A stretch of 64,000 nucleotides of DNA. It comes from Buchnera aphidicola (Melaphis rhois) (GTDB taxonomy: Bacteria > Pseudomonadota > Gammaproteobacteria > Enterobacterales > Enterobacteriaceae). Location: contig NZ_CP033004.1 in NCBI RefSeq assembly GCF_005080745.1, forward strand, positions 75,241-139,240, given 5' to 3'. The notes beneath the pieces are model-generated. The model did no database searches. It was not told the origin of the DNA and saw nothing but the letters and a program-made list of their open reading frames with translations. The first letter of the stretch is position 1, and each line of letters begins with the position of its first letter. The translations under genes and the position numbers were made by a program. This document shows positions 742 to 35,939 of the stretch, one piece after another.

Positions 742-1439
742 ATGTCTCAAAATGCATCAGAAGTAATTTGGAAGAAATGGCATCCCGAAGAACTAAAAAA
801 AAAAATGATATTGAATTAGATAATAATGTACATATCGATGACAAAAAATATAATGAGAGAGAAAAAAATCTGATTAACACGAACAGTGATCATACTATTA
901 ATAAAAGTGCAAAAAGTTATGATTTAGATCAAAAAAATGGTTATCAACAAGGTTTTTTAAAAGGAGAAAAAGAAGGTTTTATTGTTGGACTAGATAAAGC
1001 TTTATTAGAATTCAATAAAAAAAATGATGTTATTTTGACTAAAATGAATAACTTATTAGTAAGTTTTGAACAATCTTTAGCAGAATTAGATGATGTCATT
1101 GCTTCTCGTATAGTGCATTTAGCATTAAGTATCGCTAAAAAGGTTATAGAAAGTAATTCGTATTCCAATGATCAGAATTTGTTAAATAAAATAAGAGAAC
1201 TGCTTAGAAATGAAAAAATTGTTTTTAATAAACCAAAATTGTTCATTCATCCTAATGATAAAGAGATAGTTGAGAAAAATTTTGGAACTATATTTTCTAA
1301 ATATGGATGGTTAGTTTTTTATGATATCAAAGTATCTATGGGAGGATGTATTATTTCTTCGGGTGATACTATATTAGATTCAACTATATTTGGGCGTTGG
1401 ACTGAATTATGCAGGTTAGTTTTAAAAAAGAGAACATAA
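742..1439 (+). CDS. fliH: Flagellar export ATPase regulator FliH, frame split at an A11 tract
   Basis: FliH holds the export ATPase FliI and docks it on FliN/FlhA. Frame 1 starts at ATG 742 and reads MSQNASEVIWKKWHPEEL, matching the E. coli N-terminus with its WxxW docking motif, but it hits TAG at 817. The rest of FliH is in the -1 frame, from the A11 run (795-805) to TAA 1437-1439. One extra A joins them into 232 residues (E. coli 228). The -1 frame stays open upstream to 717, but that N-terminus looks nothing like FliH and is treated as spurious. The middle has Gly/Gln-rich periodicity (GYQQGFLKGEKEGF) typical of the FliH coiled coil. The stop overlaps the fliI start (TAATG). Confidence 0.85.
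795..805 (+). repeat. A11 homopolymer at the fliH frame break
   Basis: Eleven A. Zero-frame codons are CTA AAA AAA AAA ATG and lead to TAG at 817. Adding one A, or a -1 slip on A AAA AAA, enters the frame that encodes the rest of FliH. Confidence 0.9.
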
Positions 1440-2803
1440 TGAATCTAAGAATAAATAAATGGATGAAAGAAACATTAATTTGTGAGCAAGAAATAATTAA
1501 TCTTCCTAGTACAGTAAGTTATGGACGTTTAGTTGGATTTAATGGAGCTATTTTGGAAGTTAGTGGTTTGCAATTGCCTGTAGGGTCTGTTTGTTTTATA
1601 GAAAACTCTGAAAATATGCATAGTATTGATGAAATAGAAGCTGAAGTAGTTGGATTTAAAAATGAAATATTGTTTTTAATGTTATTACAAAATATAAACA
1701 GTATTATTCCTGGTTCTCGAGTTAGACCAAAAATGTCAGGCGGTATGAATTTCATGGTTCATAGATTACCGATATATGAAGGTTTATTAGGTCGAATATT
1801 AGATAGTACAGGTAAACCGTTAGATGGTTTAAAAGAAATTGACAAAAAACATCAAAAATCATTATCTCATTCAATATTTAACCCATTACATCGACATCCA
1901 GTTTCAGACGTATTAGATACTGGTATTCGTGCTATAAACGCATTATTAACCATTGGAAGAGGGCAAAGAATCGGATTATTTTCTAGTTCTGGATTAGGGA
2001 AAAGTGTATTATTAGGTATGATGACGAAATATACTGCAGCTGATATAGTTGTATTGGGGTTAATAGGAGAGCGAGGACGAGAAGTAAAAGAATTTATTGA
2101 AACTATTCTTACCAAAGAGTCTCTTAAAAAATCAGTAATCATTGCATCTCCTGCTGAATTTTCCCCGTTATTTCAAGTTCAGGGAGCTAATTATGCAGTT
2201 CGAATTGCTGAGTACTTTCGAGATAAAAACTTTCATGTATTGTTAATTATGGATTCTTTAACTCGTTATGCTATGGCTCATCGGGAAATAGCTTTATCTA
2301 TAGGAGAGTTACCTGCTATAAAAGGATATCCTCCTTCGGTGTTTTCTAAAATATCATCATTGATAGAAAGAGCAGGAAATGGAAAAGAACGAAGTGGTTC
2401 TATTACAGCATTTTATACAGTATTAACAGAAGAAGAGGAAAAATATGATCCTATTGCAGATTCGTCTCGGTCTATATTAGATGGACATATTATATTATCT
2501 CGAGAATATGCTGAATCTAGTCATTACCCGGCTATTAACATTGAAACGTCTATTAGTAGAGTAATGTCAAATATCGTGGATTCTGTTCATAATACCAAAG
2601 CTTGTTACTTTAAAAAGTTACTTTCTTGTTATCAGAGAAATCGTGATTTAATTAATGTTGGAGCATATGTTTCAGGTACTAATTCGGAGTTAGATATAGC
2701 AATTACCTTATTACCAAGATTAACGAAATTTTTACAGCAAGGCATGCAAGAAAAGAGCTCATTTTCTGAATCTAAAAGAGATTTATATAAACTATTTAGT
2801 TGA
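1439..2803 (+). CDS. fliI: Flagellum-specific export ATPase FliI
   Basis: Type III export ATPase, related to the F1 beta subunit, that unfolds and feeds substrates to the flagellar export gate. The start chosen is ATG 1439, overlapping the fliH stop by one base. An in-frame ATG at 1409 would add ten unmatched residues inside fliH. The 454-residue product has Walker A (SSSGLGKS), the FliI-type GERGREVKEF segment, Walker B (VLLIMDSLTRYAMAHREI) and the GSITAFYTVL motif. Length equals the family norm and no lesion is seen, in contrast to its neighbours fliH and fliJ. Within the operon it is translationally coupled to fliH and followed 12 bp later by fliJ. Confidence 0.97.
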   Translation: MNLRINKWMKETLICEQEIINLPSTVSYGRLVGFNGAILEVSGLQLPVGSVCFIENSENMHSIDEIEAEVVGFKNEILFLMLLQNINSIIPGSRVRPKMSGGMNFMVHRLPIYEGLLGRILDSTGKPLDGLKEIDKKHQKSLSHSIFNPLHRHPVSDVLDTGIRAINALLTIGRGQRIGLFSSSGLGKSVLLGMMTKYTAADIVVLGLIGERGREVKEFIETILTKESLKKSVIIASPAEFSPLFQVQGANYAVRIAEYFRDKNFHVLLIMDSLTRYAMAHREIALSIGELPAIKGYPPSVFSKISSLIERAGNGKERSGSITAFYTVLTEEEEKYDPIADSSRSILDGHIILSREYAESSHYPAINIETSISRVMSNIVDSVHNTKACYFKKLLSCYQRNRDLINVGAYVSGTNSELDIAITLLPRLTKFLQQGMQEKSSFSESKRDLYKLFS

Positions 2804-2815
2804 GGATAGAAATAT

Positions 2816-3258
2816 ATGTTTAAAAATAAAAAATCTATTGAATTATTAAGAAAAATTGATAAAAAAAAAACCAACAATTATCTATTATTTTAGAAAAGAT
2901 CGTTTTAAACAAAAATAAGATTCAAGATCAAATTAATTTATTATTAAAATATCAAAATGAATATCTTGTGAAATTGAATAAAAAATTATTGTATGGAATT
3001 GTAGGATTTAAATTAAACAATTATGATTATTTTATTTCTTCATTAATACATGGTATTGAACAACAAAAAAAAGTTATTGAAAAATATGATAAGCAATATC
3101 AAACATATTTTGTTTTGTGGCAAAAAAGCCAATATAGGTTGCGAATGTGGGATATGATATCTTCTAAATTGTTACATCATAGATATCAAATAATACAGCT
3201 AGAAGAACAAATGCACATTGATGAATGTGTTCAAAAATCTTTTTTTCAAAAAAGGTAG
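2816..3258 (+). CDS. fliJ: Flagellar export chaperone-escort protein FliJ, frame split at an A10 tract
   Basis: FliJ is a small coiled-coil stalk protein that binds the FliI ring and FlhA. ATG 2816 has an SD-like GAGGA upstream and reads about 18 codons, but after A10 (2861-2870) it meets TAG at 2891. The -1 frame is open from the tract to TAG 3256-3258 and contains KYQNEY and a basic/aromatic coiled-coil C-terminus like FliJ. With one extra A the product is 147 residues, exactly the E. coli length. Without rescue only a GTG at 2968 could start a 96-residue fragment. Identification rests on position, length and the YQNEY segment. Confidence 0.82.
2861..2870 (+). repeat. A10 homopolymer at the fliJ frame break
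   Basis: Ten A. Zero-frame codons GAT AAA AAA AAA ACC lead to TAG 2891. One added A or a -1 slip reads into the long downstream FliJ frame. Confidence 0.9.
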
Positions 3259-3270
3259 ACTATTATTTAT

Positions 3271-4456
3271 ATGTTAAAGATTATTAAAACAGTTACTACT
3301 ACTTTATTGCATTCAGAAAAATTTAATTTTCATCAGTTAAAATCCAAATCAAGATTAAAAACTTTTTATGAAATTTTTAATAAAAGTTTCTCATATAGTA
3401 AAAGTAATATTACGACATGCAATGTTAGTAGAAGATTAAAAATGAATAACTTTCTTAATATTGTTTCATTAACTGGAAAGATAAAAAAAAAGTGAATAAT
3501 TTGATAGATGAAAAATATTTTTTAAATAATTTTTTTATATATGGTTATATATCTTATAGGTATCATTCACTTTTTTTGAATAGTATGAAAGGTTGTTTAC
3601 AACTAGAAAAATTGTCTATGAATTTAAAAGTTTATAATAATTCGACAAAGTTTATTTATTTTTTTATTAAACAGTATATAAAACAGATAAGTTGTACGTT
3701 ATTTAATGTATTAAATAAACAAACTAACTACGTTCATGTTTTCAAACATTTATATAGATACTTAATAAAGAATACACTGAGATTTATTTATTTTGCGTCT
3801 TCTGGTATTAACTGTTTAAGCTTTAATAATATATGCAAATTAGCAACGCATATTAAATCTATAATAGCTATGAATAATCTTTTAAAAAAAAACATATGTT
3901 ATGATGAATACGTTCATATCATATTAGACTGCATGCGAACAATATTTTCCTCTGATTTTCATATATATTCAAAATATGATGATTATATAGAAAGAAAAAA
4001 TTATTGTTCATTTCATGATTACAATCCTGATTCAATGAGAAGTTATTATATGCCATTAATTTATAAGAAATTATTAACATGTTTTTCTAAAAATAAAAAA
4101 ATCGTAAAGTTATCTTTAAATGTGCAGCATTTAGGAACTTTACTTATACGATTAGAGATAAAAAAAAATAAATTTCTTAAATTAGATTTGGTGTCTAATA
4201 ATAGTATTACACAAAAAGTTTTAACATCTGATATTTCTACTTTACGAAATATTATTTTCAAAAATGGAATGAAATTTAACGAAATTGTAGTTCGAAACCC
4301 AAATATTCAAGAGATTATATTACTAAATAAAAACAGTAATTGTTGTAGTTATACACGTAATATTATGAATATTATGTCAAAAAAAAAAATAAAACGTTTA
4401 TATTAGAATTATATTGTCCTAAAATAAACCAAGAAATTGTTGATATTTACGTTTAA
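3271..4456 (+). CDS. fliK: Flagellar hook-length control protein FliK, two frame breaks at A9 and A11 tracts
   Basis: FliK measures hook length and switches export specificity. Three frame segments are needed: 3271 to the A9 tract at 3483-3491 (then TGA 3493), the tract to A11 at 4379-4389 (then TAG 4404), and the tract to TAA 4454-4456. Each step is -1, equal to one missing A, and the joined product is 395 residues (E. coli 375). The middle piece holds the conserved FliK C-terminal domain (KLSLNVQHLGTLLIRLEI). The third piece ends IVDIYV, matching the E. coli end VDIFA as I remember it. The N-terminal half is poorly conserved, as is usual for FliK. Confidence 0.78.
3483..3491 (+). repeat. 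A9 homopolymer, first frame break in fliK (A AAA AAG TGA)
   Basis: Nine A followed by GTGA. In the upstream frame the codons are AAA AAG then TGA, so a dnaX-type slippery heptamer A AAA AAG sits directly before the stop. One added A or a -1 slip continues into the main FliK frame. Confidence 0.88.
4379..4389 (+). repeat. A11 homopolymer, second frame break in fliK
   Basis: Eleven A near the 3' end. The uncorrected frame ends 5 codons later (TAG 4404-4406). The -1 frame stays open 22 more codons to TAA 4454 and ends in a FliK-like VDI(Y/F) terminus. Confidence 0.7.
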
Positions 4457-4600
4457 TAATAAAATACTTTGTGCCACTAATTTTGAATTATTATGTTTTT
4501 AGTTATTTCATGTAATAATATTGTTATCAATCTACAACGAAATAAACATTTTTCAATGTTAGCGTTTTCTATATTAACATTTACATTTTAAGGTATTGTA

Positions 4601-5536
4601 ATGAAAAATAACATTATTTTTAAAATTGGAAAAGACTATATAACGAAAAAGGGAAATAAGATCGCAATAGATTTTGTTTATAATTCAATAATAGATTATT
4701 ATACCATACATCAAATAGAAAAATCTTTGAAAAATTTTTTTAATTTTTTTTCAAAAAAAATTTCTTTATTTTTTTTAGATTCAATGAATATTAATTTAGA
4801 CGTTAAATTGAATAATATTCAATTAGCTAGGTATAATAGTTATAAAGAACATTTTGTTAATTCAAGATTTACTAATTCTTTTCAATTTATTTCACATGTA
4901 GAAACGGGAATAATAAGTTTTTCTGATGATATATTGCTATCTATTATTAATATTTTGTTTGGAGGTTCAAATTTAACTAAAGTTGTTCGCAGTAATGTTA
5001 ATACATTAACTATATCTGAAACTAATATTATGAAAAAAATGTTAGATATTATCGAAAAAGCGTATAGTTTTTCTTGGAAAAATCAACATAGTATTAATTT
5101 TAATTTATCTGATTTTCAATTAATGACAAAAAGTGATTTTGAAAGAACAATATCTGAAAATAATGTTTTTTTATTTTCGTTATTTTGCATGAAAGTAGGT
5201 AATACAGTAGGATCATTTAGTATAGGTATTCCATTTAGTATTATTAAAATGTTTAAAGATAAATTGGTAAATAGACATGTTCAAAGTAATTTAACAATAA
5301 AAAGAAAAATTGAAACAATGTCATGGCCAGTAATATATAATATAAAAATACATTTGGACATTAAACTAATTGGTTTTTCATTATTTCTATCTAAAATATT
5401 AACTTTGAAAATTGGTGATATTGTTTCTATAAAGGCTCCAGAGGACGTTATAGCATATTCTAATAATACTCCTGTATTATCAGGGAAATGTAAAATGTAT
5501 AAAAAAAAATATGTTTTTTTTTTGAAAAGTTTTTAG
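4601..5536 (+). CDS. fliM: Flagellar motor switch protein FliM
   Basis: C-ring protein linking FliG to FliN. The start is ATG 4601 with AAGG upstream. The 311-residue product aligns through the CheC-like middle domain (ISFSDDILLSIINILFGG) and the C-terminal SpoA-like domain (ILTLKIGDIVSIKAPEDVIA). The N-terminal LSQAEIDALL segment that binds phospho-CheY in E. coli FliM is absent; the protein begins directly at the post-linker region (KNNIIFKIGKDYITKK). This fits a C-ring with no chemotactic input. An A9 run at 5501-5509 is in frame. fliL, which precedes fliM in E. coli, is not found in the 144 bp before this start. Confidence 0.93.
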   Translation: MKNNIIFKIGKDYITKKGNKIAIDFVYNSIIDYYTIHQIEKSLKNFFNFFSKKISLFFLDSMNINLDVKLNNIQLARYNSYKEHFVNSRFTNSFQFISHVETGIISFSDDILLSIINILFGGSNLTKVVRSNVNTLTISETNIMKKMLDIIEKAYSFSWKNQHSINFNLSDFQLMTKSDFERTISENNVFLFSLFCMKVGNTVGSFSIGIPFSIIKMFKDKLVNRHVQSNLTIKRKIETMSWPVIYNIKIHLDIKLIGFSLFLSKILTLKIGDIVSIKAPEDVIAYSNNTPVLSGKCKMYKKKYVFFLKSF

Positions 5537-5570
5537 TATAAATGTAATAGTTATTATTAGGAAAATATTT

Positions 5571-5962
5571 ATGAATGATATTAAAAACGTAGCTAAAAAT
5601 AACAATGAAAATGAGATAAATGAATTAAAAGTAAGTATGGATAAAAAAAAAATGAAGAAAAAGATGATAATAAAAGAGATTTAGAAAAATCTTTAAAAAA
5701 GTTTAAAAACATTAATTTTGTTTCTGATATTCCAGTCAATATTACAGTTGAATTAGGACAAATTAAGTTAAAAATTAAAGATCTTCTTAATATAAACAAA
5801 GATTCCATATTGGCTCTAGATAAATATTCCGGTGAACCATTAAATATATTGGTAAATCAATGTGTAATTGCAACAGGAGAATTAGTAATTATAGAAGAAA
5901 AATATGGCATTAGAATCACTAGTATTATTGATAATTCAGAATATTTAGATAATGTGAATTAA
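5571..5962 (+). CDS. fliN: Flagellar motor switch protein FliN, frame split at an A10 tract
   Basis: FliN forms the base of the C-ring and is the docking site for FliH-FliI. ATG 5571 follows AGGAAA. The first 24 codons run to A10 (5643-5652), after which the same frame stops at TAG 5682. The -1 frame carries the whole SpoA domain (VSDIPVNITVELGQIKLKIK, then LDKYSGEPLNILVN and EKYGIRITSII) to TAA 5960-5962. One added A yields 130 residues (E. coli 137). The conserved domain lacks a good start codon of its own in its frame, so the gene depends on correction at the tract. Confidence 0.87.
5643..5652 (+). repeat. A10 homopolymer at the fliN frame break
   Basis: Ten A. Zero-frame codons GAT AAA AAA AAA ATG lead to TAG 5682. 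One added A or a -1 slip reads into the SpoA domain of FliN. Confidence 0.9.
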
Positions 5963-5997
5963 TTATTGTAAATAACAAAAAATTTTCTGTGGGTATT

Positions 5998-6357
5998 ATG
6001 TTGCAATCTATTTTAACAGAAACAATGTTTTCAAAAGTTGCAATTTGGTCTTTCAAAATAATAGTGATTATTATATTATTTACTTGGGTACTTAAAAGAA
6101 TTATTCTTACAAAAAATGCGATAAATAATTCTTCAATAAAGGTCTTAGAACGAATATCAGTTGGATCTAATGTAAGTATCGTTGTGCTAGATGTAAAAGA
6201 AATGAGATTAGTCATAGGTGTTACTTCAACAAATATTTCCATTTTATATAAATTGCCACCTGTTATAGAAAAAGGTAAACAAGGATTGTCAATTAAATCT
6301 GAAGATATTGAAAATATAAAAAAAGATTTGTCACACGTTTTTGGAATAAAACAATGA
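5998..6357 (+). CDS. fliO: Flagellar export apparatus protein FliO
   Basis: Small bitopic inner-membrane protein that assists assembly of the FliP ring. One membrane segment lies near residues 13-35 ([18 protein letters not shown]). It is followed by the FliO domain with [20 protein letters not shown] and the LYKLPP motif shared with E. coli. ATG 5998 is preferred; a GTG at 5989 is in frame and equally possible. About 119 residues, normal length. The stop overlaps the fliP start as ATGA, implying coupled translation. Confidence 0.9.
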
Positions 6358-7085
6358 TTTATCGGATAGTTTCATTATTTCTATTATTATTTTGTCCTAT
6401 GGTATATGCGGGAGATTTTAATTTTTTTAGTCATCCATTATCAGATGGAGGACAAAGTTGGTCTGTTCCAGTACAAATGTTGGTATTCATTACATCATTA
6501 ACGTTTATTGCACCAGTTTTGTTAATGATGACTAGTTTTTCTAGAATTATTATTGTTTTTAGTTTATTACGTAATGCTTTAGGAACTCCTTATTCTCCTC
6601 CAAATCAAATTCTGTTAGGTCTATCTCTTTTTTTAACTTTTTTTATTATGGCCCCAGTGTTCGACAAAATTTATCAGGATGCGTATTTGCCATTTAGTGA
6701 AGATAAAATTAATATGGATGTAGCTTTTGAAAAAGGTATGAAACCTTTACGTCAATTTATGATTAAGCAGACTCGAGAAAATGATTTAGCTTTTTTTTCC
6801 AAATTAGCTAATATTTCTAATTTTTCACATATAGAAGATATACCAACGCGCGTGCTATTGCCGTCTTTTGTTACTAGTGAACTGAAAACAGCTTTTCAAA
6901 TTGGATTTACTATTTTTATTCCATTTTTAATAATTGATTTGGTAGTAGCTAGTGTTCTTATGGCTTTAGGAATGATGATGGTTCCTCCTTCAACAATATC
7001 GTTGCCTTTTAAGTTAATGTTATTTGTATTAGTAGATGGTTGGCAATTGTTGATTACATCTTTAACTCATAGTTTTTTTCATTAA
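6354..7085 (+). CDS. fliP: Flagellar export gate protein FliP
   Basis: Pentameric core of the flagellar type III export channel. The 243-residue product begins with a cleavable signal peptide (about residues 1-19, ending VYA). It has the family's hallmark stretches [32 protein letters not shown] and [20 protein letters not shown], and ends in hydrophobic helices. Length equals E. coli FliP (245). It overlaps fliO by 4 bp and is 74 bp upstream of fliQ. Confidence 0.97.
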
Positions 7086-7159
7086 GTATTTAACGTTATT
7101 ATGACGATATTTACGATATTTAATATTTTATTTTTTAATATTGTATATTAAGGAGATGT

Positions 7160-7429
7160 ATGACAGTTGAATCTGTAATGACTCTTTTTCATGAAGCAAT
7201 GAAAATTGCGTTAATGCTTGCTTCACCTTTACTATTATCTGCTTTGTGTAGTGGTTTAGTTATTAGTATTATTCAAGCTGCTACTCAAATAAATGAACAA
7301 ACGTTATCGTTTATTCCTAAAATTATTACAGTATTATTATCTATTGTTATTTTTGGTCCTTGGATGTTAACTTTAATGTTAGATTATACTCGCTCTTTAT
7401 TTAATAATTTGTCATTGATTACTAGTTAA
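7160..7429 (+). CDS. fliQ: Flagellar export gate protein FliQ
   Basis: 89-residue protein with two membrane helices (about 17-40 and 53-76) that packs on the FliP/FliR helical export gate. The GLVISIIQAATQINEQTLSF segment is characteristic of the family. An AAGGAGAT ribosome-binding site precedes ATG 7160, the strongest in the operon. The stop TAA and the fliR ATG overlap (TAATG). Confidence 0.97.
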   Translation: MTVESVMTLFHEAMKIALMLASPLLLSALCSGLVISIIQAATQINEQTLSFIPKIITVLLSIVIFGPWMLTLMLDYTRSLFNNLSLITS

Positions 7430-8202
7430 TGATTACTTTGAATGTTCATGATTTTATGTCTATTTTTTGTAATTTTCTTTTTCTAGCAATACGGATTTTA
7501 TCTTTTGTCGCAATTGCTCCACTATTAGGAGATAAGTCTATCCCAAAAAAAATACAATTGTTTATTACATTTATTTTAAGTTGGTTTTTTATGCTTATTA
7601 TACCTAAAGTGAAAATTGATTTATTTTCTAGTGATGGATTGTTAATATTATTTGAGCAAATATTAATTGGTATGTCTTTAGGATTTGCGATGCAGTTGAT
7701 ATTTTCAGCTATTAAAGTAGCTGGAGAGATTATAAGTTTTCAAATGGGTTTATCTTTTTCATCTTTATTAGATTGGAATACTCATTCTAATATATCTGTG
7801 TTATCTCGGTTTCTCTATATATTTTTATTATTATTGTTTTTAGAGTTTAATGGTCACATTCTGATGATATCAGTATTATTTGATACTTTTAGAGCGTTTC
7901 CAATAACACCAATTAAATTAGATTCAGAAAAATATCTTCATATTGTTATGTTTACGAAATTTGCTTTTATTGATGGATTCATGTTAATGTTGCCAGTTAT
8001 TATTATTCAATTAATACTTAATTTTTCTATGGGTATCTTAAATAGGATTGCATCTCAGATTTCTATTTTTTCTATTGGATTTACGGTAACGTTACTTATA
8101 GGAGTATATACTGTTTACTTGTTTATTCCAACTATCCCGTATGTTTATAATAATATTTTTAATCGTTTAATGTGGATTTGTTCTATTTTGTCTAAGGGAT
8201 AG
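7429..8202 (+). CDS. fliR: Flagellar export gate protein FliR
   Basis: 257-residue inner-membrane protein with about six helices that completes the FliPQR gate. Family landmarks include GDKSIPKKIQLFITFILSW near residue 38 and GEIISFQMGLSF near residue 98. Normal length (E. coli 261), no lesion. It is the last gene of the operon and is followed by about 257 bp of AT-rich spacer before convergent rpmG. flhB and flhA, the partners of the gate, are not in the window. Confidence 0.96.
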   Translation: MITLNVHDFMSIFCNFLFLAIRILSFVAIAPLLGDKSIPKKIQLFITFILSWFFMLIIPKVKIDLFSSDGLLILFEQILIGMSLGFAMQLIFSAIKVAGEIISFQMGLSFSSLLDWNTHSNISVLSRFLYIFLLLLFLEFNGHILMISVLFDTFRAFPITPIKLDSEKYLHIVMFTKFAFIDGFMLMLPVIIIQLILNFSMGILNRIASQISIFSIGFTVTLLIGVYTVYLFIPTIPYVYNNIFNRLMWICSILSKG

Positions 8203-8459
8203 ATGCAAATTTAAATATATATAGAAATGATATAATTAGATTTTTTTAAGTATTATGGAATTGTAAAATATTATATTGTTGTATTTATTTTTTATTGCAT
8301 TAGTACAAGTATTATATTTCATTACTATGGTATGTAAATAGCAATTTTAAGTATAAGTTTTTTTCTATAAAATGCTAATCTATTCTTTTTTTAACAGTGA
8401 TATAGTTAGCATTATATAGTCTAAGTTTAATTATAGTGATTTATTTATTATTAGAATAA

Positions 8460-8627
8460 TTATTTCATTTTTTCTTCTCTATATAAGACATGTTTTTTAA
8501 CAATAGGATCGTATTTTTTTAGTGTCAATTTTTGAGTTTTATCTTTTTTATTTTTTGTTGTAGTATAATAATGTTTACTACCTGACGAAGAAATTAATTT
8601 TATTTTATGTCGTATACTTTTTGCCAT
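8460..8627 (-). CDS. rpmG: 50S ribosomal protein L33
   Basis: 55 codons, identical in length to E. coli L33. The product starts [17 protein letters not shown] and has the L33 core YYTTTKNK followed by [16 protein letters not shown]. The bacterial zinc-ribbon cysteines are absent, as in E. coli. An AGAGGA ribosome-binding site lies upstream within the end of rpmB. It is second in an rpmB-rpmG operon, the same order as in E. coli. Confidence 0.96.
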
Positions 8628-8865
8628 TTTTTTGTCCTCTATTTTTTAATAGATTTTTTTTTAATATTATTTCTAGCCCAATTTTATCTATGCAGCGTAT
8701 ACCTTTTGCAGATACTTTTAATGAAATAAATTTATTTCTTTGTACATCCCAAAATTTATGAAAATGTAAATTTGGTAAAAATCGTTTTTTAGTAGCATTC
8801 ATAGCGTGAGATCGATTATTTCCAATCATTGGTTTTTTACCAGTGATTTGACATTTTTTAGACAT
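8605..8865 (-). CDS. rpmB: 50S ribosomal protein L28, C-terminus probably altered at an A9 tract
   Basis: The N-terminal 65 residues are clearly L28 ([20 protein letters not shown], then [13 protein letters not shown] and [11 protein letters not shown]). The uncorrected frame gives 86 residues, 8 longer than E. coli, and runs 23 bp into rpmG. Adding one A to the coding-strand A9 (plus-strand T9 at 8654-8662) ends the protein after KKKSIKK at a TAG at 8639-8641. That gives 75 residues and leaves the rpmG ribosome-binding site between the two genes. The corrected form looks more natural, but both are possible. Confidence 0.93.
8654..8662 (-). repeat. A9 homopolymer (coding strand) near the 3' end of rpmB
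   Basis: T9 on the plus strand. One added A on the coding strand would end L28 at 75 residues before rpmG; as written the frame continues into rpmG. Confidence 0.6.
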
Positions 8866-9000
8866 AATTACAATTTTTACCTCGATATTGTTTTAGACGT
8901 TTAAATGTTTGTTGAATTATAAATATTTTATGTAATTCTTATATATTAGAGATTAATTTTTAAAATTATAGATCAAATATTGCTAATAGGATTTATTTTA

Positions 9001-11658
9001 ATGAATTTTTTTAAAAGATTATTATTATCTATAATTTTATTATGCACATCTTGTGTTTGTGTTTTGATCTTTTTAATTTATAGTCATTTCGGATTAAATA
9101 TTGTTTGCTATCTAGTTCATTATTATATACCACAATTGGAAATAAAAAAATCGATAGGTAAATTAAATAATTGTATATTTCAAGACATAAAATATTCTAC
9201 TCATAATAGAAATTTTTTCGTTAAAGAATTAAAAATAAAATTTAGTTTTAACTTTTTTAAAAATTTTTATATTTGTATTGACGAATTATCGTTTAAGAAA
9301 TGTAGTTTATATATTAGCGATATTTTGTTGATGAAATCTAATAGAAAAATGTTATTCTTAAATATAGCATCTCTTTTTAGAGTTCCCGTTTTTTTTAAAA
9401 ATATAATATTTGATAATTTTTACTATTCTACAAATAATATATCATTAACTTTAGATAATTTTTTCGGAAAATGTTATTGGACTGGAGAACAGTTAGAAGG
9501 TTTATGTAGTAAAATTGATAATATTTATATCAAAACATTTCAGAATATAGACAATGATAAAAATTTATATGATAGATTTAAAGTAAATAGAATTATGTAT
9601 TTAAGAAATTTTTTAGAGCAACCTCTAAAATATTTTAAAAATTTTAATAATATTTTTCTTATTAATCTTAATATACAGAGCTTTTACAGTAATAACATAT
9701 ATTTTTTAGGGAAAAATAGTGTTAAGTTATCTAAGTTTTTTTTTAATGGTCAGGTAAATGTCAGTAAAATAAATATAATAAAATTGTGTTTTCGTAGTTA
9801 TAATTTTGTTAACCATATTTATGGTACTATTATCTTTAATAATAATTTTTTAACTAATATTGTTATTAATTGCGATAACTATATAAATTATAGATATCAT
9901 GAAAATGTCAGTATTATTATTAGAGGATTTTTATTACAAGACTTAAGTATAAATGCAAAATTTTTTGGTATTATAAATACAAAGATATATATCAAGTTTA
10001 CTTTTAAAAAAAATAGTTCTATTTTTAATTTTAAACTGCATCTTCCGTACATTAGTATAATTGAAAATGATAACAATCATTTATTTTTAAAAAATCTAAA
10101 AATTCATATTTTAGGAAACCCATGTAATTATACTTTTGTTTTAGATAGTACTATTAATATTCATTTAGTTTCTACAATGAAACTGCATATGTCAGGAAAA
10201 GGAAATTATTTTTCAATATTTATTGATACTATTCAATGTTTAACTACAGATAAAAAAACAATATTTGATTATTTATTTAGTATTGTTTATTCGAAAAAAG
10301 ATCTTGTGATTACTGAGTTAAATAAAAATAGTTATAATTATTATATAAAAAATATAATGAGAAACGTAATATTCAAATTTATTAGTTTTATAAAAAGTTG
10401 TAGTTTATTATTAAATATAAAAATTTTGTTTAAAAATATTCTAGCTGTAGAAAATTTTGATAAATTAGAAAATATTAATATAATATTTCAATTAGATAAA
10501 TTGAAGAGTATATGTTTAAATAGTTTTGGAAACATTAAAGGTAATATTAAATTTACTAATATTAATAATAATCATAAATTTTTAATAAAATGTATAGGAC
10601 ATAATTTGAATTTAAAAATCCTTAAAAATTCCAATATTAATTTTTTTATAATAGTACAAAAAAATAATATAAATTTTTTTGGATCTACTTTATTCATAAA
10701 AAACTGTGTTATTTTTAATTCACATGTTTTTTCATTTGTTCTGGAATTAAACTATAATAGATATAATCATAGTTTTTATTTAAATATATTACGTAAAAAT
10801 TGTTCTTTTAATTTAAATTTTCGAGGAAAATTTGATATTTATTCAAATAAATGGATTGAAATAGTAAATAATATTGATTTCGATACATTGTTCTTTAATA
10901 TTCATGTTAATAAAATTATATTGAAATTTAATAATAACAATATAATAAATCATTTAAACTTAATTGTATTAGATAAATATCTTTTGTTAAAAACAAGTAT
11001 TATAAATAAAACGAAATGTGAAATATTTACTTTTCTGAATAGTAACTATAGGAATATTTTTAATTTATTTTCAAGGTTAAGACATTTATATACTTCTCAC
11101 GCATTGTTTGTGTCCAGGATCAAAATTTATTCAAATTATCGTTGCAGTAATCATCAGAAAAGGTTTAAATGGAACTTTAATATAATAAATGATAATAATG
11201 TTAATGCAGTGTTCATGGGGTTTATAAATATTAAAGAAATTGATAAAAATTTTTTTATTTCGGGTAGTGTTAATTTCAAAAATGTACCAATATCTTTATT
11301 TAAGTTATTTGAACTAAATATTGAATATATTAGCGGAATATTGAATGGAACGCTTCGTTTTAGGGAAGACATATATAACAATATAAAATTATTAGGTAAT
11401 ATATCAATTGTACATTGTTGGATAAATAATTGGTTGTATGTAAGACAATTGTATTTTAATAATATAGAATTAATTTTTAGTTCTAATAAAATTACTTTTA
11501 ATAGCATCGTTCATATTAAAAGTTTGTTTGAAACTATATTTGATTTAAAAATATTAGGTTTTCATTCATGGAATAATAAAATATGTCAACGTATTTTTAT
11601 TAAAGTATTTTATTTATTTTATTATAATGTTAACGTTATACATATATTAGATATTTAA
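9001..11658 (+). CDS. tamB: TamB (YtfN) family envelope protein, C-terminally truncated
   Basis: TamB is a long inner-membrane-anchored periplasmic beta-rich protein linked to outer-membrane assembly and lipid transport. The 885-residue product has an N-terminal anchor helix (about 6-26) and then an N-terminus aligning with E. coli YtfN (the YIPQLEIKKSIGKL and CIDELSFKKC regions). The body is low-complexity Asn/Ile/Lys-rich sequence with beta periodicity. E. coli TamB is about 1,259 residues; the conserved C-terminal DUF490 end is missing here. ATG 9001 with AGG upstream is preferred to the in-frame TTG at 8980. The in-frame remnant after the stop suggests truncation by nonsense mutation. TamA is not in the window. 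Confidence 0.72.
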   Translation: MNFFKRLLLSIILLCTSCVCVLIFLIYSHFGLNIVCYLVHYYIPQLEIKKSIGKLNNCIFQDIKYSTHNRNFFVKELKIKFSFNFFKNFYICIDELSFKKCSLYISDILLMKSNRKMLFLNIASLFRVPVFFKNIIFDNFYYSTNNISLTLDNFFGKCYWTGEQLEGLCSKIDNIYIKTFQNIDNDKNLYDRFKVNRIMYLRNFLEQPLKYFKNFNNIFLINLNIQSFYSNNIYFLGKNSVKLSKFFFNGQVNVSKINIIKLCFRSYNFVNHIYGTIIFNNNFLTNIVINCDNYINYRYHENVSIIIRGFLLQDLSINAKFFGIINTKIYIKFTFKKNSSIFNFKLHLPYISIIENDNNHLFLKNLKIHILGNPCNYTFVLDSTINIHLVSTMKLHMSGKGNYFSIFIDTIQCLTTDKKTIFDYLFSIVYSKKDLVITELNKNSYNYYIKNIMRNVIFKFISFIKSCSLLLNIKILFKNILAVENFDKLENINIIFQLDKLKSICLNSFGNIKGNIKFTNINNNHKFLIKCIGHNLNLKILKNSNINFFIIVQKNNINFFGSTLFIKNCVIFNSHVFSFVLELNYNRYNHSFYLNILRKNCSFNLNFRGKFDIYSNKWIEIVNNIDFDTLFFNIHVNKIILKFNNNNIINHLNLIVLDKYLLLKTSIINKTKCEIFTFLNSNYRNIFNLFSRLRHLYTSHALFVSRIKIYSNYRCSNHQKRFKWNFNIINDNNVNAVFMGFINIKEIDKNFFISGSVNFKNVPISLFKLFELNIEYISGILNGTLRFREDIYNNIKLLGNISIVHCWINNWLYVRQLYFNNIELIFSSNKITFNSIVHIKSLFETIFDLKILGFHSWNNKICQRIFIKVFYLFYYNVNVIHILDI

Positions 11659-14366: not shown

Positions 14367-14382
14367 TATTAGGGTTTTTAAA

Positions 14383-27447: not shown

Positions 27448-27451
27448 CTAC

Positions 27452-28759: not shown

Positions 28760-28761
28760 TT

Positions 28762-29841
28762 ATGAATATCAAAAAATTAGTTCGAAAGGATATTCGGGAA
28801 TTAATACCTTATCAATCTGCACGAAAAATAGGTGGGAAAGGTGATATATGGTTGAACGCGAATGAATTTCCTGAGTTTAATAATATTAAGTTAAATAACA
28901 TTATTTTAAATCGTTATCCAGAATGTCAACCTGAACAATTAACATCTTGTTATTCTTCTTATATTGGTATTAATAAAAGTAATATATTAATAACTCGAGG
29001 TATCGATGAAGCAATTGAATTATTAATAAAAACTTTTTGCAATCCTCAAAATGAAAAAATTATTTTTTGTCCTCCTACTTATGATATGTATAATATTAGT
29101 GCAAAAATTATTGGAATTAAAAGCTATGAGGTACCATTATTAAATTTTTCTTGGCAATTAGACATTAATAATATTGCTAAGTATATTAGTGATGCTAAAT
29201 TAATTTATATATGCAATCCTAACAATCCCACCGGTAACTTAATTAATTATCAAGATATTATTACTTTATTGAACATAACTTTAGGAAAAACACTCGTAAT
29301 AGTAGATGAAGCATATATTGAATTTTCTCCAATACATAGTTTAACGAATTTAATAGATACGTATCCTAACTTAGTTATATTGAGAACGTTATCTAAGGCT
29401 TTTGCTTTAGCTGGACTACGATGTGGTTTTATATTAACGAATGTCAATATAGTAAAGTTTTTATTAAAAGTTATTAATCCCTATCCTATTCCTATTCCTA
29501 CTACAAGTATAGCTGTTCAATTTCTAAGTAAAAATAATATTAATGAGATGAGAAATAGAATTTTTGATTTGACGTTGAATCGTTTTTGGTTGGTAAATAA
29601 ATTAAAATCCATGAATAATTGTGTAGAGCATGTTTTTAATAGTTTTGCTAATTACATTTTAGTTCGATTTTACAATTCTCGTAAAGTTTTTGATATATTG
29701 TCAAAAAAAGGAATTATTGTTAGAGATCAAAGTAATAAATTGCATTTAAGTAGATGTTTAAGAATATCCATAGGAACTAGTAAAGAATGTTTAGAAGTTG
29801 TTCGAGTTATTCAGAAGATTAATAGTTTATGTGTATATTAA
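28762..29841 (+). CDS. hisC: Histidinol-phosphate aminotransferase
   Basis: PLP enzyme transferring an amino group from glutamate to imidazole-acetol phosphate. The 359-residue product (E. coli 356) contains WLNANEFP, the CNPNNPTGN motif, VDEAYIEF and the PLP-lysine in RTLSKAFALAGLRCG. The C-terminal Arg motif is in LRISIGTSKE. It lies between hisD and hisB in the complete his operon. Confidence 0.97.
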   Translation: MNIKKLVRKDIRELIPYQSARKIGGKGDIWLNANEFPEFNNIKLNNIILNRYPECQPEQLTSCYSSYIGINKSNILITRGIDEAIELLIKTFCNPQNEKIIFCPPTYDMYNISAKIIGIKSYEVPLLNFSWQLDINNIAKYISDAKLIYICNPNNPTGNLINYQDIITLLNITLGKTLVIVDEAYIEFSPIHSLTNLIDTYPNLVILRTLSKAFALAGLRCGFILTNVNIVKFLLKVINPYPIPIPTTSIAVQFLSKNNINEMRNRIFDLTLNRFWLVNKLKSMNNCVEHVFNSFANYILVRFYNSRKVFDILSKKGIIVRDQSNKLHLSRCLRISIGTSKECLEVVRVIQKINSLCVY

Positions 29842-29850
29842 GGAAATAAT

Positions 29851-30918
29851 ATGAATAAAAAAGTTTTATTTATTGATCGTGATGGAACATTAATTGCAGA
29901 ACCTAATCAAAATTTTCAAGTAGATGATATAAATAAATTAACTTTTGAAAAATGCGTGATTCCAGCTTTAATTAAACTAAAAGAGTTTGGTTATACATTT
30001 GTTATAATTACTAACCAGGATGGATTGGGTTCTAAAAAATTTCCATTAGCTTCATTTTCTATACCTCATCAATTTATGATAAACGTTTTTCTATCTCAAG
30101 GTATAGTATTCGAAGATATTTTGATTTGTCCTCATGAAGTTGAACATCGTTGCAATTGCCGAAAACCTAAGATAGGGATGATAAAACATTGGTTAGATAG
30201 TGATCAGTTAGATAAAAAAAATAGTTATGTTATTGGAGATCGTGATTCAGATATGGAATTAGCAAAAAATTCTGAATTATTAGGATTCCATTATGGAAAG
30301 AATGGATGTACGTGGAATACTATACAGTCTAAGTTGACCCAAAGAAATAGATATGCATGTATTATTAGGAATACTAAAGAAACCAAAGTTAAAATAGAAG
30401 TATGGTTAGATAGATGTGGGGAAAATTTAATTAATACTAAATTGCATTTCTTTAATCATATGTTAAATCAAATAGCAATTCATAGTAATATTAGAATGAA
30501 AATAGTGTCTAATGGAGATACTCATGTTGATGATCATCATACAATAGAAGATGTTGGCATTGTTTTAGGACAAGTTTTAAATAAAGCGTTGGGAAATAAA
30601 ATAGGTTTAGATAGATTTGGTTTTACTTTACCTATGGATGAAAGCGTAGGATATTGTTTAATGGATATTTCTGGTCGTCCTTTTTTAAAATTTGAATCTC
30701 AATTTAAATTTCAGCATATAGGTGATATGAGTACAGAAATGGTAGAACATTTTTTTAGATCTTTAGCTTTTTCGATGCAAATAACTTTACATTTAAAAAG
30801 TACAGGTGAAAACGATCATCATCGGATTGAAAGTTTATTTAAAGTTTTTGGAAAGACGCTAAGACAAGCTATTAACGTAAATGGAACGACCTTACCGAGT
30901 TCTAAAGGATTTTTATAA
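29851..30918 (+). CDS. hisB: Bifunctional imidazoleglycerol-phosphate dehydratase / histidinol-phosphatase
   Basis: Two-domain enteric-type HisB catalysing steps 7 and 9. Residues 1-165 form the HAD phosphatase (FIDRDGTLI at the N-terminus, TNQDG, a Cys/His zinc loop [12 protein letters not shown] and [11 protein letters not shown]). Residues 167-355 form the Mn-dependent dehydratase with [13 protein letters not shown], the [11 protein letters not shown] motif and [10 protein letters not shown]. Full length (E. coli 355). The stop overlaps the hisH start by one base (TAATG). Confidence 0.97.
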
Positions 30919-31508
30919 TGAGTGTAGTTATCATAAATACCGGTTGTTCTAATTTATCTTCTATAAAATATGCTATTTGTAGACTAGGTTATAATCCAAA
31001 AATTAGTACTTCTGTAAGAGATATATTAAGTGCAAATAAAATATTACTACCGGGTGTAGGTTCAGCATATTCAGCGATTCGAGTATTATCAGAATCAAAT
31101 TTATTAAATATTATTAAAAAATGTCAGCAGCCGTTTTTAGGTATTTGCTTAGGTATGCAATTGTTAAGTGCTTTTAGTAGCGAAGCACAAGGTTTGGATC
31201 TTTTGAGTATTATTAATTCACCTGTATATAGGTTAAATTCCGGTTCGTTACCATTGCCTCACAATGGATGGAACAATGTAGAAATATGCAGAAATAATGT
31301 GTTATTTGAAGATATTGAGAATCATTCTAAATTTTATTTTTTACATAGTTATTCTGTAGACATTACTAAATATACTATAGCAAAAACGTTATATAATACT
31401 TATTTTAGTGCTGCTATACAAAAGAACAATTTTTTTGGAGTTCAATTTCATCCAGAAAAATCTGGAAAAGTTGGTTTAAAATTATTAAAAAATTTTTTGG
31501 AGATATGA
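30918..31508 (+). CDS. hisH: Imidazole glycerol phosphate synthase, glutaminase subunit
   Basis: Class I glutamine amidotransferase that feeds ammonia to HisF. The 196-residue product has LPGVGSA and the nucleophile Cys in [11 protein letters not shown] (about residue 77). The remaining triad residues are in [10 protein letters not shown] near the C-terminus. Length is the same as E. coli HisH (196). It overlaps hisA by 4 bp (31505-31508), consistent with coupled production of the HisHF pair. Confidence 0.96.
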
Positions 31509-32248
31509 TATTGATCATACCATCTGTAGATTTAATTAATGGGAAAATTGTTAGATTATATCAGGGAAAATATAATTGTAAAACTTCTTATGAAGATGAT
31601 ATATATGACGTTTTATCAAATTATTATTCACAAGGATCATCTATTGTACATTTAGTAGATTTAGATGGAGCACTGAACCCTAAAAGAAAACAAATTCATA
31701 TTATTGAAACTTTACTTTCTAATTCTAATTTTAATATACAAGTAGGAGGTGGAATACGAACACGTCAAGACATAGAGTTGTTATTTTCGTTAGGTGTTAA
31801 GCGAGTAGTAATTGGTTCTTTAGCTATATACGATTCTATTACAGTAAAGACATGGTTAAAAGAATATGGAGGAGATGCTATTATATTAGCATTTGATATA
31901 AGAATTAATAATCATGAATATAAAGAAGTAGTAGTAGATGCTTGGAAAAAATTTTCTGGAGTTAGTTTAGAAAAATTAATAGATGAGTTTTCTTCATGTG
32001 GTCTTAAGTATGTTTTATGTACTGATATATCTAGAGATGGAACATTGTTAGGTCCTAATATAAATTTATATAAAGATCTCGTAAAGTCATTCAGCCATAT
32101 TAGTTTTCAATCTTCTGGTGGCATAGGATCTCTGAATGATATAACATCTATTAAGCAATCTGGAGTAGAAAGTATAATTATTGGAAGAGCTTTATTAGAA
32201 AAAAAATTCAGTTTAATAGAGGCTATACAATGTTGGCAAAACGGATAA
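31505..32248 (+). CDS. hisA: Phosphoribosylformimino-5-aminoimidazole carboxamide ribotide isomerase
   Basis: TIM-barrel Amadori isomerase of histidine synthesis. The 247-residue product (E. coli 245) shows [18 protein letters not shown] with the catalytic Asp near residue 8, VQVGGGIR-like [11 protein letters not shown], and the second Asp in [10 protein letters not shown]. The phosphate loop is [10 protein letters not shown]. Its 3' end overlaps hisF by 19 bp. Confidence 0.97.
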
Positions 32249-33006
32249 TTCCTTGTTTAGATGTAAGTAATGGACAAGTAGTAAAAGGTATTCAATTTAA
32301 GAATCATAAAATAGTTGGCAATATACTTCCATTAGCACAATATTATACTGATCAAGGAGCAGATGAATTAGTATTTTATGATATTAAAGCTTCATCAGAT
32401 AATAGATTATTAGATAAAAAATGGATTACTCAAATAGCAGAGGTAATAGATATTCCATTTTGTGTAGCTGGAGGCATTAAAACAGTGAATGATGTTAAAG
32501 ATATTTTGTCTTTTGGTGCGGATAAAATTTCTATTAATTCTCCAGCTTTATCAAATCCAGATTTAATTAGTCGTATTGCTGATAGTTTCGGTATACAATG
32601 TGTAGTTATTGGAATAGATTCATGGTTTGATAAGATAAGCAATAGTTATCAAGTATATCAATATACTGGAAGTACACAGAGAACAGTAAGAACGAAATGG
32701 AATACGTTTGATTGGATAAAAAGAGTACAAGACTTAGGTGCTGGAGAAATAGTACTAAATGTAATGAATGAAGATGGAATGCGTAATGGATATGATTTAA
32801 AGCAATTAACTCAAGTAAGAAAAATATGTCATGTACCTCTAATTGCTTCTGGTGGAGCAGGTGAATTACAGCATTTTTATGACGTTTTTCATAAATCTCG
32901 AGTAGATGGTGCATTAGCTGCTTCCGTATTTCATGAAAATATAATAAATATAAAAACTCTTAAGAATTTTTTAATTGAAAGAGGTTTAGAGATTAGAAAA
33001 TGTTAA
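32230..33006 (+). CDS. hisF: Imidazole glycerol phosphate synthase, cyclase subunit
   Basis: Cyclase subunit that forms IGP and releases AICAR, using ammonia from HisH. The 258-residue TIM barrel (E. coli 258) begins [20 protein letters not shown] with the catalytic Asp near residue 11. It has [10 protein letters not shown] and keeps the second catalytic Asp in [15 protein letters not shown]. The ASGGAGEL phosphate loop is intact. It overlaps both neighbours, hisA by 19 bp and hisI by 7 bp. Confidence 0.97.
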
Positions 33007-33626
33007 AAAAAATAAATGTTTCTGATATAGATTGGAACAAGGTTGGTAATATGGTACCGACTATAATTCAACACAGTATTTCCGGTGAAGTATTGATGTA
33101 TGGAGTTATGAATCAAGAAGCCGTTTTAATAACGCAAAAAGAACATTATGTTACTTTTTATTCTCGAACGAAAAAGCGATTATGGAAAAAAGGAGAAATA
33201 TCTGGAAACTATTTACGAGTAGTTAATATGATACTTGACTGTGATAAAGATACATTATTAATTTTAGTACTTCCTCAAGGAAATACGTGTCATTTAAATC
33301 ATACAAGTTGTTTTAAATCGTTTACTTCAGATTTGACTTTTTTTTATCATCTTGAAAACATATTAAAACTAAAACAAAAACATATTTCTAAACACTCTTA
33401 TACTTCTCGTTTACATGTTATGGGTATTAATAAAATTGCTCAAAAAGTTGCTGAAGAAGCAGCAGAAACAGTTATTTCTGCTATAACACAGAATAAATTA
33501 GAATTAATTGATGAAGTTACTGATTTAATTTATCATGTGTTAGTATTGTTACATCATTGTGATTTAGATTTTTGTATGATTGTTGAAAATTTAAGAAAAA
33601 GAAGAAACAATAATACTGTAATATGA
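33000..33626 (+). CDS. hisI: Bifunctional phosphoribosyl-AMP cyclohydrolase / phosphoribosyl-ATP pyrophosphatase
   Basis: HisIE fusion catalysing steps 2 and 3. Residues 1-115 form the cyclohydrolase ([29 protein letters not shown], metal site LDCDKDTLL and a Cys near TCHLNHTSC). The C-terminal 85 residues form the MazG-like pyrophosphatase ([14 protein letters not shown] and [16 protein letters not shown]). At 208 residues it is close to E. coli (203). It is the last gene of the operon, and gnd follows after 93 bp as a separate unit. Confidence 0.97.
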
Positions 33627-33719
33627 TATAAATTTTTATATTTATTTTTAATGTATGTCCGAAAAATTAATTTTGCTAACATTTTAATTTTATAATCTTA
33701 GAGTATAGAGGAGTAAAAA

Positions 33720-35132
33720 ATGACAAAAAAACAAATTGGTATAATAGGAATGGCAACAATGGGTCAAAATTTAGCTTTAAATATAGCACGTAATAAATAT
33801 ACTGTATCTGTATTTAATAGATCATCTGAAGTTACTAAACAATTTGTTTTAAATAATGTTAATGAAAATATATTTCCATTTTTTTCAATTAAAGAGTTTA
33901 TTCGATCTTTAAAAGTTCCACGATGTATTTTAATAATGATTAAGTCTGGTATAGCTGTTGACGACATTATTGAATTGATGAAGAAATATTTAAATAAAGG
34001 AGATATTATTATTGATGGAGGAAATACTTTTTACCAAGAGACCATTCGACGAAGTCATGAGTTATCTAAGCATGGGTTATATTTAATAGGGGCAGGTATT
34101 TCTGGAGGCGCTGAAGGTGCGTTATATGGACCTGCTATTATGCCTGGAGGATCTAGAAAAGCTTATGATTATATTGCTCCTATATTAAAAAAAATTTCTT
34201 CAAAATTTGAAGGACAACCGTGTGTTAGTTATATAGGTAAAGATGGATCAGGACATTATGTTAAAATGGTACATAACGGTATTGAATATGGTGATATGCA
34301 ATTAATAGCTGAATCTTATTTTTTAATGAAAAACTTGTTAAAATTAGATAATCAAGAATTATCGGATATATTTTTAGAGTGGAATAAAGGAGAATTAAAT
34401 AGTTATTTAATATCAATTACGACAAATATTTTAATTAAGAAAGATATTAATAATAGTTATATAGTGGATTATATTTTAGATGAAGCTGATAATAAAGGAA
34501 CAGGAACATGGGCTACTAAGAGCGCTCTAGATCTTAACGAACCTTTAACTTTAATAACTTCATCGGTTTTTTTTCGTTATTTGTCATCTTTAAAATCAGA
34601 ACGAATGTTAGCATCAAAAATGTTATTTGGACCTAAAAATAATCATATGCTGTCTAATAAGATCGATTTAATTGAAAAAATTCGTAAGTCTCTTTATTTA
34701 GGAAAAATTATATCTTATGCTCAAGGTTTTTCACAACTAAGTAGCGCTTCTAAGAAATATGATTGGAATTTACAATATTCAGAAATAGCTAGAATTTTTC
34801 AATCTGGATGCATTATTCGTGCAAAACTGTTAAAATATATTAGTCAAGGATATTTAAAAAATAAAGATATTGTTAATTTATTGTTGATTAGCTATTTTAA
34901 AAATATTGTTAATAGTTATCAAGATGCGCTTCGAGATGTTGTATCAATTGCTATTAAATCTGGGATTCCAGTTCCAGCTTTATCTTCTGCAATAACGTAT
35001 TTTGATTGCTATAGATCTGCTATATTACCTGCAAATTTAATTCAAGCTCAAAGAGATTATTTCGGATCACATACGTATAAACGAATTGATAATTGTAATT
35101 TTTTTCATACTGATTGGAACGAAAATAGTTAA
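33720..35132 (+). CDS. gnd: 6-phosphogluconate dehydrogenase, decarboxylating
   Basis: NADP-dependent oxidative step of the pentose phosphate pathway, producing ribulose-5-P and NADPH. The 470-residue product (E. coli 468) has the Rossmann motif [36 protein letters not shown] and the catalytic-region Lys in [38 protein letters not shown] is intact. A strong AGAGGAG site precedes ATG 33720. The his-gnd neighbourhood is conserved from E. coli. Confidence 0.97.
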
Positions 35133-35358
35133 TAAATCATTAGTAGTTGAAATTTCACATTATTATAGTAATTAACAATTATAACTTGAACATATATTGT
35201 TTTATGTAATTATAGAGCTTTTAAACGCTATATGTATTTTATTGTTTTATTTATTGAAAGTTTATATTTCAAATTTTTATAGAATAACAGTATTAAACTG
35301 TTTTGATTCGTTATTTTTGTATTTTAAATTAATTAGATAGCATTATAGGTTGTTCGAA

Positions 35359-35939
35359 ATGAGATTAAGTGATAGAGATATTGAATTATGGTTGAAAAAA
35401 AAAAGTTAGTTATTATACCTACCCCGAATAAAAAATTTATCCATGGAGTAACTATTGATATTCGCTTGGGTAATCAATTTTATACTTTTTGCCAAAGTAA
35501 AAAATATAGTATTGACTTAAGTAAATCAAAGAATGAAATTGCTTTAATGCTACAAGAAATTATGAGTAAAAAAAAGGTTATATCGAATAGCGAGAGGTTT
35601 GTGTTAAAACCTAAATCATTAGCACTAGCAGTTACTTTAGAAAAAGTTGTTATGCCTAATGATTTAGTAGGATGGATAGATGGTCGTTCGTCTTTAGCTC
35701 GACTTGGATTAATGATTCATGCTACTGCACATCGTATAGATCCAGGTTGGAGTGGAAATATTGTTTTAGAGTTTTTTAATTCTGGTAATATGATATTGAC
35801 ATTATGTCCAGGAATGCTAATAGGTGCTTTGAGTTTTGAATTGTTATCTAGTCCATCTTTGAGACCGTATAATATGAGAAGAGATGCTAAATACTTCAAT
35901 CAAGATGGAGTGACATTGAGTAAAATATATGAAGATTAA
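35359..35939 (+). CDS. dcd: dCTP deaminase, frame split at an A10 tract
   Basis: Homotrimeric deaminase making dUTP, the source of most dTMP in enterics. ATG 35359 encodes MRLSDRDIELWL, matching E. coli MRLCDRDIEAWL, but after A10 (35395-35404) that frame stops at TAG 35407. The remainder (GVTIDIRLG, GRSSLARLGLMIHATAHRID with the catalytic Glu region, EFFNSG) is in the -1 frame. One added A gives 193 residues, exactly the E. coli length. A translation start at ATG 35388 in the second frame would drop 12 conserved residues, including the conserved DRDI. It overlaps metG by 11 bp. Confidence 0.9.
35395..35404 (+). repeat. A10 homopolymer at the dcd frame break
   Basis: Ten A. Zero-frame codons TTG AAA AAA AAA AGT TAG give a stop 4 codons into the run. 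One added A or a -1 slip yields the conserved Dcd frame. Confidence 0.92.

Follow-up and report, generated by a model that had tools for sequence, protein, structure and literature searches.

Off-length poly(A) runs split conserved genes in Buchnera, and the run in fliJ is common to nine congeners

In a 64,000-nucleotide stretch of the Buchnera aphidicola (Melaphis rhois) genome (contig NZ_CP033004.1, positions 75,241 to 139,240; hereafter the window), the gene fliJ is divided between two reading frames at a run of ten adenines that is one base short, and we found the same run with the same shift in all nine genomes of the ingroup to which this one belongs. We conclude that the off-length run predates the split of these nine congeners, and that fliJ is the fixed extreme of a class of poly(A)-tract frameshifts that, ancient cases included, has already been published for Buchnera and Blochmannia. 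We think it probable that the changes in tract length are genuine, and that they are tolerated since slippage of RNA polymerase would return some of the mRNA to frame.

The genome carrying the window (G000, window at C1:75241-139240) is of Buchnera type, a reduced, AT-rich symbiont genome like those of the slippage-rescued poly(A) class (616,452 bp in a single contig; GC content of the window about 25%). We compared it with ten congeners of the same genus (G001 to G010). A tree built from 25 concatenated intact proteins of the 11 genomes placed a Baizongia-type genome (G003) and G007 as a pair on a long branch, leaving nine genomes, G000 among them, as the ingroup. The root was placed on the G003+G007 branch by assumption, and the pairing of G000 with G005 had a support of only 0.182. 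Frame changes were found by frameshift-aware protein-to-DNA alignment, with open reading frames (ORFs) of the congeners as references, and by two-frame readings. Runs were counted in the collinear stretches of all 11 genomes (66-kb census; isolated frameshifts backed by two or more references, runs with at least three covering references), in four genomes, G003 among them, over 300 kb beyond the window, with a single reference sufficing (census A), and in 300 kb of G000, G006, G004, G008, G001 and G003, with G007 not included, under a stricter rule (census B). The fliJ gene of the window, detected by two references only, lies outside the 66-kb census. Many single-reference alignment events were noise from shadow ORFs and were omitted from the counts. 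Short pieces that escaped the automatic calls were read by eye, namely rsmC in G000 and G006, fliJ in several genomes, and the frames of lepB.

In each of the nine ingroup genomes fliJ has an MFKN start, followed by GAT (AGT in G008) and then by the A10 run (A9 and a G in G008). Beyond the run the -1 frame is open for 129-138 codons; 9-19 stops interrupt the other two frames. Because the -1 frame has a TAA across the start of the run in 9/9 genomes, the change of frame must take place inside the run. Both halves are similar in the nine genomes, and mismatches in the 3' half fall most often on third codon positions (.235/.183/.334 for the first, second and third), as expected under purifying selection. 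The outgroup genomes G003 and G007 have fliJ in a single frame, without an A run. We also surveyed how well A-runs of at least nine are preserved across the nine ingroup genomes, using the 66-kb stretches and requiring at least six alignable orthologs. The fliJ run was the only one that stayed at nine or more in all nine; among the other runs, 100 of 118 entries stayed at nine or more in none to three of the other ingroup genomes. An internal start for the 3' piece was not supported, the first downstream ATG, GTG or TTG being 5 to 58 codons in and varying between species.

An earlier note on the window, drawn from its letters, had suggested comparing the tracts in relatives, and that comparison brought out the same off-length run again and again, in fliJ (9/9), rsmC (8/9), ftsI (7/9) and ung (6/9). 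The A10 run of rsmC is one base short in every ingroup genome except G010, where the gene is in frame and the run is broken to A9; rsmC of G009 changes frame again further downstream. The ftsI run is one short except in G008 and G001, where the gene is in frame, and ftsI of the outgroup G007 occupies two frames, in the opposite direction, at a T10. For ung the A10 is one short, with exceptions in G009 and G001 (in frame with A11) and in G008 (opposite direction); in the outgroups, ung is in frame with A11 in G003 and in two frames at an A12 in G007. The lepB gene is out of frame in 8/9 ingroup genomes, four in each direction, and G010 has no run; its reading in G009 is less sure, the downstream frame being open also upstream of the run.

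Systematic under-calling of homopolymers in the assemblies, one of four explanations listed in the earlier note, would likewise produce errors that grow with run length, and 454 data have been described as unreliable in AT-rich regions (PMC3890641). We give this explanation almost no credence. The off-length at fliJ is identical in nine genomes and those in rsmC, ung and ftsI are shared as well, so that the changes belong to no single assembly. Nor is there a ceiling on run length: runs of at least 11 are called in 8/9 ingroup genomes, G000 is not short of long runs compared with its relatives, and G003, which equals its relatives in long coding runs, has none out of frame (below).

Frame changes are concentrated on long runs, and this is not chance. 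In the window, coding-strand A-runs of at least ten were out of frame in 5/6 cases and A9 runs in 1/19, and none of seven T-runs of at least nine inside aligned genes was out of frame. The 66-kb census gave 2/727 for A7, 0/351 for A8, 1/170 for A9, 9/48 for A10, 8/14 for A11 and 1/2 for A12, that is, 3/1248 for A7-A9 pooled; the T-runs gave 1/394 (T7), 0/200 (T8), 0/74 (T9) and 2/4 (T10). Census A showed a steep threshold, with 4/1253 (A7), 2/700 (A8), 8/319 (A9), 23/100 (A10), 2/11 (A11) and 1/6 (A12), against 0/371, 1/179, 0/63 and 3/8 for T7 to T10.

The proportion of A-runs of at least ten that are out of frame in census B was 10/31 in G000, 8/20 in G006, 6/35 in G004, 11/34 in G008 and 7/35 in G001, and therefore the window genome is no outlier. 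The Baizongia-type genome G003 has as many such coding runs as its relatives and none is out of frame in 300 kb (0/35, versus 42/155 in the five ingroup genomes, p=7.5e-5). Separately, one T10 of G003 is out of frame against five references. In its 66-kb stretch the outgroup G007 shifts frame at an A11, as judged against ten references. Loss of mismatch repair was rejected as the cause of these differences, since the out-of-frame rate at A-runs of at least ten was 18/69 with mutS (G008, G001) and 24/86 without it (G000, G006, G004; p=0.86). Intact mutS is present in G001, G003, G007, G008 and G009; G006 and G000 (C1:437256-437799, outside the window) retain a remnant riddled with stops, and no match at E<=0.001 was obtained in G002, G004, G005 and G010. 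GreA, present in 11/11 genomes, is uninformative as an explanation.

All frame changes in the window had been said to go the same way. This holds inside the window, where 6/6 runs are one base short (p=0.03), and softens to a bias elsewhere: one-short runs outnumbered the others 39:15 (A-runs of at least nine, five ingroup genomes, 300 kb; p=0.0015) and 30:10 among the A-runs of census A (p=0.002). The opposite direction even occurs in the window's own genes in congeners, in fliH and fliK of G005, fliK of G001 and dcd of G009.

The commoner direction, -1, is also the one that slipping of the ribosome would give. The two frames could be joined in translation by -1 slipping at A AAA AAA/G, or by ribosomes sliding on AAA runs, which they do on A stretches according to PMC4363877. 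Any A-run of at least nine holds A AAA AAA in phase, as in programmed -1 frameshifting of the dnaX type, and A9 followed by G stands in fliJ of G008 and ftsI of G010. Under the strict rule T10 runs were out of frame in 0/11 cases in the five ingroup genomes versus 32/130 for A10 (p=0.07), which leans to an A-specific rescue. In contrast, under the looser rules T10 runs do go out of frame (census A and the 66-kb census), and 15 of 54 out-of-frame runs go the other way. Unlike dnaX-type sites, moreover, fliJ has no conserved stimulatory structure downstream of its run (consensus -2.58 kcal/mol over nine genomes), and folds at four window sites were not clearly above shuffles (z -1.24 to -0.11). 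We consider ribosomal slipping unlikely. Slippage of RNA polymerase fits the length threshold, the one-short bias and the occurrence of both directions, and is therefore the best fit of the four listed explanations; contraction bias probably adds to it.

By this mechanism, replication slippage in long A runs would create single-base changes, with runs of A10 and longer as hot sites. RNA polymerase would then add the base back in some transcripts while the RNA:DNA hybrid sits wholly inside the run, part of the mRNA would be in frame, and protein would still be produced at a lower level. One-short runs may be better tolerated because insertions are the commoner error in homopolymer transcription in Buchnera: of the 157 insertions counted, 151 fell in homopolymers, as against 16 of 57 deletions; 70 deletions were given in all (PMC5574713). 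Corrected transcripts at such runs are put at 12-50% in an aphid and an ant symbiont by a paper citing other work (PMC5009743). Once a gene depended on slippage, synonymous breaks in the run would be costly and the run would be retained.

Two observations on placement and persistence bear on retention; in both, made in G000, G006 and G004, shared loci were counted repeatedly, which makes the p values too favourable. A homologous run of at least nine was kept in 26/46 comparisons for out-of-frame and in 31/106 for in-frame A-runs of at least ten (p=0.002), and 13/26 out-of-frame runs versus 9/56 in-frame runs lay within the first 40 codons (p=0.003). Codons that encode Lys in all nine ingroup genomes and are AAA in G000, G006 and G004 were AAA in the other six in 87/178 cases, which gives about 0.12 for three consecutive AAA codons under independence. 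Chance is therefore not expected to leave the runs of fliJ, ung, ftsI and rsmC uninterrupted, but these loci were chosen for being out of frame.

Off-length runs also recur with less uniformity. The same codon is affected in at least two census-B genomes in murF, murG, emtA, the NAD kinase gene, ackA and rimM, mostly with different lengths or directions, and in murE codon 38 is affected in two genomes and codon 73 in a third. Buchnera is highly polyploid, and cells with mixed tract lengths in their DNA could make protein from an in-frame minority of copies. The tracts of murF, lepB, emtA, ung and ackA do vary in length and direction between species, and single-base indel polymorphisms have been recorded inside two Buchnera (PMC3164680). 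A free mixture should often give an in-frame majority, however, and fliJ is off-length in 9/9 genomes; we regard this explanation as improbable.

At a finer scale, the earlier note had placed seven one-short sites in the window. Alignment to congener ORFs bore out six of them (fliH, fliJ, two in fliK, fliN and dcd; Table 1): each run is one base short relative to the congeners, the protein continues in the -1 frame, and the gene is otherwise open. The seventh, rpmB, was rejected, its ORF being in the frame of RpmB of relatives such as G005, G006 and G010 with Pfam L28 matching over positions 1-59 of 60. The runs that the note had read as in frame (A10 in smrB; A9 in talA, rsxC and fliM) were likewise never called out of frame by alignment. 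The sites differ in their spread. In fliN the one-short change lies at the identical place and in the same direction in G000, G005 and G004. The A11 change of fliH was found in G000 only among the 11 congeners; fliH frame changes in G000, G005, G004 and G001 are at differing positions and look like independent events. At the dcd run only G009 also shifts frame among the congeners.

Table 1. Pieces and runs of the split genes in the window, with the rejected rpmB site
Feature	Position	Strand	Basis or remark
fliH 5' piece	742..794	+	MSQNASEVIWKKWHPEEL
fliH A11, shift to -1 frame	795..805	+	run list, two-frame reading, alignment
fliH 3' piece	806..1439	+	Pfam FliH
fliJ 5' piece	2816..2860	+	15 codons, MFKNKKSIELLRKID; similar across 9 ingroup congeners
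fliJ A10, one base short	2861..2870	+	same run, same shift in 9/9 ingroup congeners
fliJ 3' piece, -1 frame	2869..3258	+	129 codons and stop; Pfam FliJ
fliK 5' piece	3271..3482	+	two-frame reading
fliK A9, first frame change	3483..3491	+	alignment
fliK middle piece	3492..4378	+	weak Pfam Flg_hook match, under its cut-off
fliK A11, second frame change	4379..4389	+	alignment
fliK 3' piece	4390..4456	+	two-frame reading
fliN 5' piece	5571..5642	+	two-frame reading
fliN A10, frame change	5643..5652	+	alignment
fliN 3' piece	5653..5962	+	Pfam FliMN_C
rpmB, whole, in frame	8605..8865	-	rejected site; T9 at 8654-8662 (A9 on minus strand), no frame change
dcd 5' piece	35359..35394	+	MRLSDRDIELWL
dcd A10, frame change	35395..35404	+	alignment
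dcd 3' piece	35405..35939	+	NCBIfam dCTP_deam, above its cut-off

Frame changes away from long runs were also seen. Among the matches listed, G005 has many of them in dcd and the secD-secF region; this is either a set of decayed genes or a stretch of poor sequence. Similar scattered changes affect the homologue of an 892-aa ORF (window 8980-11658) in G006 and G002. In the rsx cluster of G010, where decay is in progress, frame changes extend across several kb in alignments with as many as ten references, again among the matches listed.

Such decay raises the alternative that the split genes are early pseudogenes, dispensable and with the run as merely the place of the first break. The appearance of fliK, which looks eroded in G006 and G002, the decay of dcd in G005 and the high substitution ratio of fliJ (below) fit it. 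We compared G006 with G002, both of which carry the frame changes, and measured the ratio of nonsynonymous to synonymous substitution rates (dN/dS) piece by piece, with 49 intact genes as controls (median 0.146, maximum 0.338). The values for ung (0.13) and ftsI (0.07) are at control level, and these genes are under ordinary constraint. In fliJ, ung, ftsI and rsmC the sequence is otherwise open after the change in nearly all genomes. Genes that are essential in E. coli are also out of frame, each of pheS (A12, G008) and fabB (A11, G009) against ten references, and murG, murF, fabD (G008) and the NAD kinase gene at runs of at least ten. We judge general pseudogene status to be slightly less probable still than mixed tract lengths.

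Several observations nevertheless weigh against rescue by RNA polymerase. The dN/dS of fliJ, the highest measured, is 0.42, above every control, on few substitutions, and that of lepB is 0.28. Because G006 and G002 have stops in all three frames within the first 330 bases 3' of fliJ, fliK may be dying, and fliK of the window may be an early pseudogene. The fliH and dcd changes, as particular to G000, could be recent losses. Whereas ackA is out of frame at an A11 in G008 and G001, an A12 is kept in frame in G000, G006 and G004. The T9 of pheS (window 56672-56680) has length 9 in 8/9 ingroup genomes with no frame change called, and therefore amino-acid constraint can also preserve runs. A published survey of the Buchnera transcriptome saw no reading frame restored (PMC5574713). 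Finally, the argument for polymerase slippage comes from DNA sequence, and from it we would predict the slippage, the full-length proteins and the locking-in of the run.

Poly(A) frameshifts rescued by transcriptional slippage were reportedly described in Buchnera and Blochmannia by Tamas et al. in 2008. The sites reported here resemble that class in their setting (a reduced, AT-rich insect symbiont), in the single-base change inside a long A run, and in the conservation of the gene otherwise; cell-wall genes are included in both, murF here too. They differ in that ours are known from DNA, and in their sharing: an out-of-frame run recurs in as many as nine congeners for fliJ, and in the majority of the nine for rsmC, ftsI, ung and lepB. 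Ancient homopolymer frameshifts maintained by selection are reportedly the subject of Wernegreen, Kauppinen and Degnan (2010), a case that is alike in that an off-length run is preserved between species without decay.

Homopolymeric frameshifts per genome were counted by Degnan et al. (2011) as 8-18 in Aphidinae, 1 in Baizongia and 3 in Cinara, with convergent hits such as murF and a suggestion of slippage-based regulation (PMC3164680). Of their 69 frameshifts 42 were confined to single genomes, unlike the runs shared here, and fliJ does not occur in the main text of that paper. Genes split by poly(A) in the Buchnera of Myzus persicae were merged by the annotators, with both sides of the tract conserved; unlike here, sharing between species is not discussed in the relevant passages (PMC3890641). 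Frameshifts have been called conserved 'even between different species' (PMC3017870), and the class is also covered in PMC4389277. Among the matches listed, supplements aside, a frameshift of fliJ, rsmC, ung, ftsI or lepB shared between Buchnera species is unreported, and this is a weak absence.

A bolder possibility, which we advance tentatively and regard as rather less likely than not to be right, is that the runs of fliJ, rsmC, ung, ftsI and lepB are lasting recoding elements. If so, fliJ would have been expressed only by way of polymerase slippage since before the nine species split, selection would keep the run, and its placement near the 5' end would keep failed products short and make the run a dial for expression.

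Genes that annotation would score as broken, including some that E. coli cannot do without, have long been conserved here in that form, and pseudogene counts in such genomes are therefore misleading. A 2022 comparison of cell-wall genes in Buchnera, for example, dropped frameshifted coding sequences as likely pseudogenes (PMC9116674). Across species, the runs of fliJ, rsmC, ung and ftsI offer natural replicates for gauging how far gene expression can depend on polymerase error, with the Baizongia-type genome, whose long A-runs are equally numerous yet never out of frame, available for contrast.

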